Part shown: piece by piece, positions 4,555 to 11,073 of the stretch | Layout of the letters: every line of letters starts with the position of its first letter | How positions within the stretch are numbered: position 1 is the stretch's first letter | Source: an uncultured archaeon | Lineage (GTDB): Archaea; Halobacteriota; Methanosarcinia; Methanotrichales; Methanotrichaceae | Assembly: GCA_902385025.1 (NCBI GenBank) | Contig: CABMDX010000266.1 | Span: forward strand, 1-12,191 | DNA: 12,191 bases | Reading direction: 5' to 3' | Translations under genes and position numbers: made by a program | The notes under the pieces: model-generated | What the model was told of the DNA's origin: nothing | What the model saw: the letters and a program-made list of their open reading frames with translations, nothing else | Database searches by the model: none

Positions 4555-5973
4555 TCAATCCAATAATCCAAGATACTCTGACAGCTTGGTCTGGGTAGCC
4601 ATGCACTTTTCGCCCGGTATTTCCACAGGATAGATTCCCGTGAGGCATCCCATGCAAAGGTTCTCCTTGGGTATGCCCACCGCCTCCACCAGCCCCTTGT
4701 GACTAACATATCCCAGGGAGTCGGCATTGATGACCGCCTCCACTCCTGCAACTGTCTTGTAGGCGGCAATCAGCTCCTCGCGGCTTGCCATATCGATGCC
4801 GAGATAGCAGGGCGCAAGGATGGGCGGGCTTCCTATGCGTACATGAACCTCCTTTGCACCGGCTTTGCGCACCATGTTCACTATCCTTCTGCTGGTTGTG
4901 CCGCGAACAATGGAGTCGTCCACCAGGACCAGCTTATGCCCCTCGATATTGGGCCGGATGGTATTCATCTTCAGGCGCACAGCCGTCTCCCGCATGCTCT
5001 GGTCAGGCATGATAAAGGTTCTGCCTATGTACCGGTTCTTCATCAGGCATTCCCGGTAGCTGATCCCGGAACGCTGATGGTAGCCCACCGCCAGGGTTAT
5101 GCCCGAATCGGGGATGGGTGTGACCGTGTCTGCATTTGCCGGATGCTCCTTGGCCAGATGCGCGCCAATGTTCACCCTGACATCGTAAATCAGGCGGCCG
5201 TCCATTATGCTATCAGGCCTGGCGAAGTAGATGTATTCAAAGACGCAATGAGCGGGACTTGGAAGACGTGCCAGTTGGGGGCACTAGATCTGGCCGTGCT
5301 TGATCACCACCAGCTCGCCTGGCATAACATCGCGGATTAGGCGGCCGTTTAAGGTGTCTATGGCCACACTTTCCGATGCCACCATCATGCCTGAATCCAG
5401 TTCGCCTATGCAAAGAGGCTTGATGCCCAGAGGATCGCGCACACCCAGGACGGTATCTCCCCATAAAAAGACCAGAGAATAAGAGCCCACAATCTTTCGC
5501 ATCAGCGCCCGAACCGCTTCCTGCAGATCATGACGCAGAAGCTCTTTAACAAAAAGGTGGGCTATGACCTCCGTATCAGAGGTAGAATAGAATATATCCC
5601 CTGCCTGCTCCAGTTGCTCTCGAAGCTGGCAGGAGTTGACCAGATTACCATTATGTGCTACTGCAATAGCCCCGTCTTTATACTTGACGAGGAATGGCTG
5701 GGTATTCTCAATGCACGAGCGTCCGGTGGTAGGATATCTGACGTGGCCTATTCCAACAGTTCCGCGCAAAAGCGCAATCTGGGCATCATTGAAGGCCTCG
5801 GCGACAAGACCCATACCCCTGTGGGTACGAATGGCCTTGCCATCGTGAACGGAGATGCCCGCGGCCTCCTGCCCCCGATGCTGCAATGCGTATAGGGCGT
5901 AATAAATGGATTTGGCAACGCTCTTGCCCGTCTCATTGAAGGATATCCCGACAACGCCGCAGGCATCGTGCAA
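4555..5973 (-). pseudogene. purF: amidophosphoribosyltransferase PurF, interrupted by in-frame TAG at codon 230
   Basis: First committed enzyme of purine synthesis: PRPP plus glutamine gives 5-phosphoribosylamine. Codons 1-229 (5973-5287) are a complete class II glutaminase domain: the nucleophile Cys5 in MHDACGVVGI, then YALQHRGQEAAGIS, GIGHVRYPTTG, AVAHNGNLVN and STSDTEV. TAG occupies 5286-5284. The same frame then continues without a stop to TGA at 4557-4555 and encodes the phosphoribosyltransferase domain: [21 protein letters not shown], the PRPP loop [16 protein letters not shown], and likely Fe-S cysteines in APCYLG and LCMGCLTG. Full length is 472 codons, typical of the family. The only standard restart codon, ATG at 5205, would drop Cys243 (a cluster ligand in this family) and [11 protein letters not shown], so a natural two-piece enzyme looks unlikely. 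The start is TTG at 5973, six bases after TAGAGGT, which overlaps the rpl37e stop. Typed as disrupted because of the sequence as read; error or readthrough is possible. Confidence 0.88.
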
Positions 5974-7862: not shown

Positions 7863-8143
7863 GCTTTGAAAATTTGAATTACAGAGATATTCTCATTCGA
7901 TTCCGCCAGCTTATGCCAATGCAGCAGGCTGCGATAGTTGGCGTGATATTTTTGGTGGTATACCTGCCGTATTCCTACTTCTTGCTGCATATGACGCCAG
8001 CAGAATCCTTCCGCATGTCGGTCTTCTCTACCATCATATTCGTTGTTGTCTACTACTTCACATCGGTCATTTTCGTGAAAAAGGGTGTGCAGGCCTCACA
8101 AGCTCGATCCAGGGGACCGAGAAAGGGCCTCAGAAATAAGTAA
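7856..8143 (+). CDS. small two-helix membrane protein, hypothetical
   Basis: A 95-residue protein that I do not recognise. It has two hydrophobic helices (about 25-45 and 54-75) and a strongly basic C-terminal tail (SQARSRGPRKGLRNK). The TTG at 7856 is supported by GAGGTG (7842-7847) eight bases upstream, and it overlaps the end of the preceding membrane-protein gene by seven bases. If the TTG is not used, the next ATG (7910) lies just before the first helix. The tight coupling suggests it is a partner subunit of the upstream membrane protein; that is inference. A run of seven T follows about 45 bases after the stop. Confidence 0.65.
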   Translation: MVSFENLNYRDILIRFRQLMPMQQAAIVGVIFLVVYLPYSYFLLHMTPAESFRMSVFSTIIFVVVYYFTSVIFVKKGVQASQARSRGPRKGLRNK

Positions 8144-10597: not shown

Positions 10598-10621
10598 CAT
10601 TATCCAGTGTCTATGTTATCT

Positions 10622-10855
10622 ATGAGAACTCTGAGCTACCGAATCACTCTCCGTAAGGAGCCCGAAGGAGGTTACACCGTGATGGTTCCGACGCTTCCAG
10701 GATGTGTCACTCATGGGAAGACCGTGGAAGAGGCCATCGAGATGGCCCGGGATGCCATTACGGGTTACATCGAGAGTCTCATTGAAGACGGAGAAACGGT
10801 TCCCGTAGAGGAAGATCTCATCGAGTGCAGGCTGACTGTGGAGGCTCATGCCTAA
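10622..10855 (+). CDS. hicB: HicB family antitoxin
   Basis: A 77-residue HicB-like antitoxin that in intact systems binds and neutralises the HicA mRNA interferase. The partial RNase-H-like fold is visible: LSYRITLRKEPEGGYTVMVPTLPGCVTHGKTVEEAIEMA is the family hallmark (substrate-mimic strand, PxLPGC, G-x-T-x-E-E-A), followed by DAITGYIESL and a C-terminal strand. No separate ribbon-helix-helix or HTH DNA-binding tail is present, so this is the short form. In-frame starts at 10607 (GTG) and 10613 (ATG) are possible, but 10622 fits the TATA spacing and family length. Its TAA overlaps the hicA start (ATGCCTAA). The antitoxin looks intact although the toxin partner is broken. Confidence 0.9.
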   Translation: MRTLSYRITLRKEPEGGYTVMVPTLPGCVTHGKTVEEAIEMARDAITGYIESLIEDGETVPVEEDLIECRLTVEAHA

Positions 10856-11073
10856 GCTGCCATCACTTAATCCTCAGAAAGTCATAACTATTTTAGAAAA
10901 GAAAGGTTTCGTATTGAAAAGAGTCACAGGAAGCCATTAATTATTTGTTCACCCGGAAACAAAGAGAAGAGTTACAGTTCTTTATCATAGCCCAGGATAT
11001 CGCCAGAGGCACACTTCTCCGGATTCTGGAAGACGCTGGAATAGACAGAGAAGAGCTGCAAAATCTTCTTTGA
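10848..11073 (+). pseudogene. hicA: HicA toxin remnant (in-frame TAA plus frameshift)
   Basis: HicA toxins are small double-stranded-RNA-binding-fold mRNA interferases. From ATG 10848 the frame reads MPKLPSLNPQKVI, ILEKKGFVLKRVTGSH, including the catalytic-type His30 in GSH. It then meets TAA at 10938-10940. The same frame resumes with LFVHPETKRRVTVLYH, as expected for HicA. Near 10985-10995 the coding signal moves to the +1 frame, giving DIARGTLLRILEDAGI and REELQNLL, ending at TGA 11071-11073. Total length is one base over a multiple of three, consistent with one inserted or two missing bases. Two independent lesions make a functional toxin very unlikely as read. It shares an ATGCCTAA overlap with hicB. 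Confidence 0.85.

Follow-up and report, generated by a model that had tools for sequence, protein, structure and literature searches.

Methanosarcinaceae decode TAG as pyrrolysine, and spurious premature stops occur in draft metagenome assemblies. Both precedents bear on a gene for amidophosphoribosyltransferase (PurF) that we found interrupted by an in-frame TAG. The DNA analyzed here (the window, 12,191 nucleotides) is an entire contig of a Methanothrix-type draft genome (390 contigs totaling 2,278,623 bases; 78.6% complete) that was probably assembled from a metagenome. On its minus strand a purF frame runs from TTG 5973, preceded by a ribosome-binding-like sequence seen by eye, to a TGA at 4557–4555, and codon 230 of this frame is a TAG (5286–5284). 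We consider this TAG to be genuine in the record but probably not in the organism.

The TAG is flanked by open frame on both sides, with 229 codons upstream encoding the N-terminal glutamine amidotransferase half (5287–5973) and 242 codons plus the TGA downstream encoding the C-terminal phosphoribosyltransferase half (4555–5283). In a family profile search the N half covers positions 1–220 of TIGR01134 (E = 4.8e-74, 250.3 bits) and the C half positions 231–432 (E = 1.6e-80, 271.6 bits); either half singly falls below the whole-protein cut-off of 350 bits, and together they cover the profile as a member of the family does, apart from the uninterrupted reading frame that the TAG at codon 230 denies it in the draft. 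Pfam assigns GATase domains (GATase_6/7) to the N half and Pribosyltran to the C half, and the stop therefore sits in the interdomain linker. The motifs of the enzyme are retained, with HDACG at 2 containing the catalytic Cys near the N terminus, HNGNL at 107, C243 within its own motif, the PRPP loop motif at 351, and three further cysteines, C389, C440, and C443; we take the motif residues to have their usual family roles and the four cysteines C243, C389, C440, and C443 to be the likely Fe-S ligands. The first ATG, GTG, or TTG downstream of the TAG is ATG 5205, past C243, so a restart there would lose a likely Fe-S ligand. An amber codon at position 230 with open frame and family motifs on either side, a division falling between the two catalytic domains, and a next standard start that drops Cys-243 had all been described in an earlier reading of the sequence alone, and the frame, profile, and motif checks bear out each of these points.

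To place the stop among related genes, we searched for the C half in 24 other same-genus genomes, 20 of which gave a copy spanning the TAG site. Against these 20 copies the N half has a median identity of 89% and the C half one of 93%, so the resemblance is not due to chance. All 20 have a sense codon at the site (13 Lys, 4 Arg, 1 Gln, 1 Thr, and 1 Ser), and in the wider class Glu was found in 9 of 9 copies (9 fetched of 16). Among purF relatives from named genomes, the best 80 of 417 were kept; the site holds Glu in 39, Lys in 19, Arg in 10, Ser in 6, Thr in 4, Gln in 1, and Phe in 1, and a stop in none of the 80. On these alignments codon 230 is a variable linker position, and because its residue varies among relatives, the TAG is not assignable to one particular precursor codon, such as the CAG that had been proposed. 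The best full-length PurF relative listed is 92% identical, and the best half matches are 92% (N) and 95% (C) identical. The draft contains a single PurF (two further N-half matches are 31% identical), and no same-species PurF, intact or split, was found among the 7998–8000 protein-collection candidates sharing most words, a collection whose clusters at 90% identity could conceal such a copy.

Several other irregular purF records were encountered along the way. A stop in the C half is listed for ten relatives, and in 9 of the 9 fetched the first stop proved to be the natural end, at codon 468–472. Two of the best 80 relatives look broken in other ways: a Methanosarcinaceae draft (L256) has a purF with an internal TGA away from the codon-230 site, and in a Methanothrix draft (L204, probably identical with contig L025 of genome G001) purF looks frame-shifted near its end. 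These two cases indicate that other drafts, too, occasionally contain broken purF copies. In a further genus-mate genome, G006, a small conserved protein adjoining purF has an in-frame TAG (L032:5715–5717).

We then asked how well the window copy is preserved apart from its stop. It is changed at none of 130 columns that are invariant across 80 other sequences, and within the close group of 20 it departs at 2 of 339 columns, the eighth highest of the 20. DNA identity to same-genus sequences is 73–84% over aligned regions that cover purF and neighboring genes. Judged from these comparisons, purF shows no sign of decay apart from the TAG, and a gene otherwise undamaged implies that the TAG arose very recently or is not real. 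The codons surrounding the TAG are unlike those of all 20 relatives shown; this could reflect real divergence, and it counts against an error in the base calls.

The window contains two further interrupted frames. A TreT-type trehalose synthase frame on the minus strand is divided by an in-frame TAA at 678–680 into an N-terminal piece (678–1187, NF041139 positions 14–179) and a C-terminal piece in the same frame (3–677, NF041139 positions 193–409) that runs to the contig end; of 25 other same-genus genomes, just 2 gave a match, and both have open 412-residue TreT copies. On the plus strand, at about 10620–11073, lies a pair that we presume to be hicB/hicA-like, in which the hicA-like frame is interrupted by a TAA, appears to be continued in another frame, and may be a real pseudogene.

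In-frame stops were also sought across the draft by two routes. In the first, the window and 60 draft contigs, one of them truncated to 20,000 bases, together supplied 372,991 bases that were compared with 958 open frames drawn from a near-complete same-genus genome (G004; 61 stretches). We left out matches of less than 50% or 55% identity, depending on the step, two frames taken as antisense or spurious (L036_8248 and L036_15070), and stops for which local identity did not exceed 0.4 on at least one side (for example, those in L106 and in L101 near 14683). Among the 72 matches kept, well-supported internal stops were found in isoleucyl-tRNA synthetase (IleRS), purF, and a DUF2111 protein, all TAG, together with a TGA near the contig end in a transposase-like gene (L089); no frame shift was flagged in any of the 72. 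A TGA at L080:4259, six residues into a repeat-protein match, is uncertain.

The second route was a codon-score scan of 416,498 draft bases, which selected 31 stops, of which 7 were judged mid-gene in a triage made by eye and not blind. The same scan selected 61 stops in 1,219,901 bases of G004, of which 2 were judged mid-gene (P = 0.0015 for draft versus G004; P = 0.014 with only the five family-confirmed draft stops), and 16 stops in 264,046 bases of relatives, of which none was clearly mid-gene and one (L033:5618) is uncertain. The remaining 24 draft stops and 59 G004 stops were dismissed by eye as natural ends, neighboring genes, or wrong frames, L070:749 being uncertain. The two probable mid-gene stops of G004 lie in genes that we named by eye as RuBisCO-like (L158:11576) and rhodanese-like (L166:18054). 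The scan missed the stops in purF, treT, hicA, and L089.

For five of the seven scan-found stops the same family matches on both sides at contiguous positions. The IleRS gene has a TAG at L103:2792–2794, with family positions 4–191 before the stop and 196–854 after it. A carB piece has a TGA (L076:1453–1455), an acyl-CoA ligase a TAG (L053:2058–2060), an aldolase-type 2-amino-3,7-dideoxyheptulosonate synthase a TGA (L101:18877–18879), and the DUF2111 protein its TAG at L100:3555–3557, each with the same family on both sides. For two others, the TAGs in L071 and L113, no family matches the sequence downstream of the stop. A second carB piece has a TAG at L292:1083–1085, codon 313 of the match and 12 codons before the contig end. 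Eight stops can thus be counted as family-supported, namely those in purF, IleRS, the acyl-CoA ligase, the DUF2111 protein, the two carB pieces, the heptulosonate synthase, and treT, made up of five TAG, two TGA, and one TAA. Four stand outside this count: L071, L113, and the accessory genes L089 (TGA) and hicA (TAA).

Some of these genes are essential or belong to the purine pathway. A search of the whole draft found a single IleRS gene, with its one internal TAG, and no internal stop in six weaker synthetase-like matches; ileS of other same-genus genomes has none in 22 matches. Both carB pieces found in the draft are interrupted, one by TGA and one by TAG, and carB of other same-genus genomes has no internal stop in 29 matches. 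It should be noted that ileS and the TGA-bearing carB piece were picked as already known to be broken, which does not apply to the second carB piece. No stop was found in the draft fragments of purL and purD, nor in 23 and 22 matches elsewhere, respectively.

Taken together, these data make a consensus base error in a fragmented draft the probable origin of the purF TAG, and we hold this reading with good confidence. Wrong bases are inferred here in preference to true mutations, since simultaneous loss of IleRS, carB, and purF would scarcely be compatible with life. The implied rate of wrong bases is about 0.13% (95% interval, 0.03–0.38%; 3 stops in 63,666 aligned bases), and a rate near this value would account for the IleRS, carB, and purF stops together. 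It also predicts one or two missense errors per gene, and the 130 invariant columns of purF, at which there are none, are too few to decide the matter. The stop-free purL, purD, and six synthetase matches count against the base error. If the error is as we suppose, the organism would carry an ordinary full-length purF, translated into one bifunctional enzyme that would combine glutamine amidotransferase and PRPP amidotransferase activities with a 4Fe-4S cluster. Sequencing error was among the options first offered for this site, and now that TAG, TGA, and TAA have all been seen inside other conserved genes of the draft it has become the best supported of them. A literature search on draft-genome errors and Methanosaeta purF found no paper.

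A real and very recent nonsense mutation, or a variant of a single strain, could instead have inactivated purF, with the cell living by purine salvage or the variant being rare in its population. Apart from the TAG, both purF halves are undamaged and conserved, which fits an event of recent date, and transient in-frame stops are reportedly widespread in bacterial genes (PMC7918605). This explanation nevertheless leaves the IleRS and carB stops of the same draft unaccounted for, and the purL and purD fragments have been retained; we regard it as rather unlikely, at something like one chance in six.

We give very little credence to a decoding of TAG as an amino acid, by pyrrolysine or a suppressor tRNA, that would yield full-length PurF. 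What speaks for it is that TAG makes up 5 of the 8 family-supported mid-gene stops, including the one inside the sole IleRS gene found. This share, however, matches what random substitution predicts in the codon usage of the draft (51% TAG; P = 0.39 for 5 or more of 8), as does the share among all 12 stops (7 TAG; P = 0.42), and TGA and TAA interrupt genes likewise, so that TAG is not the only stop inside genes. Nor is TAG avoided as a terminator, since it ends 14 of 55 conserved draft genes versus 10 of 60 G004 counterparts (P = 0.26), and IleRS itself has one TAG inside and another as its end. No pyrrolysyl-tRNA synthetase (PylS) scored over the cut-off in the draft or in 26 genus genomes; in a control set of 14 genomes that included Methanosarcina acetivorans, one was over the cut-off. 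No CUA anticodon was present among 23 tRNA matches, introns allowed, in a draft that is 78.6% complete, and neither a tRNA nor an Rfam match was found within the window. The RNA downstream of the purF stop has an ordinary fold (z = 0.09) rather than a structure that might stimulate readthrough. The suppression or readthrough suggested by the sequence-only reading therefore finds no footing here, and recoding of TAG alone is not supported. Slightly less credible still is that this Methanothrix species tolerates all three stops through broad and efficient readthrough, with full-length PurF, IleRS, and CarB being made; if the stops were real, such wide readthrough in an archaeon would be remarkable.

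Least credible of all is that purF truly encodes two proteins, with a non-standard codon just past the TAG as the start of the second: although the break lies in the linker, and two database entries end (P0125, 228 residues, 71% identical) or begin (P0128, 249 residues, 94% identical) at about this point, where a stop or contig end may have cut either, none of the 80 best relatives (of 417) has a stop at the site, no ribosome-binding-like sequence was seen by eye before CTG 5274 (the start proposed for a split enzyme) or ATG 5205, the first standard start loses C243, and the other incomplete PurF entries viewed (5 of the 6 N halves and 3 of the 19 C halves, with all 6 and 4 of the 19 viewed) break elsewhere. 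A natural split would be expected to show its own C243-keeping start and to be common to relatives, and neither was seen. Two further incomplete entries, P0122 and P0123, were judged by eye to be frame shifts.

The purF stop is thus most likely ordinary and not a real feature. The description of the site and the sequencing-error option in the sequence-only reading have held up, whereas suppression and a split enzyme have not. Several housekeeping genes of the draft probably contain substitution errors, and it would be unwise to read recoding or gene loss from one in-frame stop in this assembly.

Compared with described systems, the locus shares with the pyrrolysine decoding of Methanosarcinaceae an in-frame TAG in a methanogen gene. 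It is unlike that system in that no PylS or CUA tRNA was found, TAG is a normal stop, other stops also lie inside genes, and PurF is not a methylamine methyltransferase. With amidophosphoribosyltransferase of the Methanothrix type (TIGR01134, EC 2.4.2.14) it shares domain order, catalytic motifs, and the likely Fe-S cysteines (of the 20 same-genus copies, 19 are 87–92% identical to it over nearly full length, and the frame-shifted L025 is 81% identical), and it differs in the TAG at codon 230, which is in none of the relatives fetched. The spurious premature stops of draft metagenome assemblies are likewise of the substitution type, of mixed kinds, and spread over unrelated conserved genes of one fragmented draft, as are those described here.
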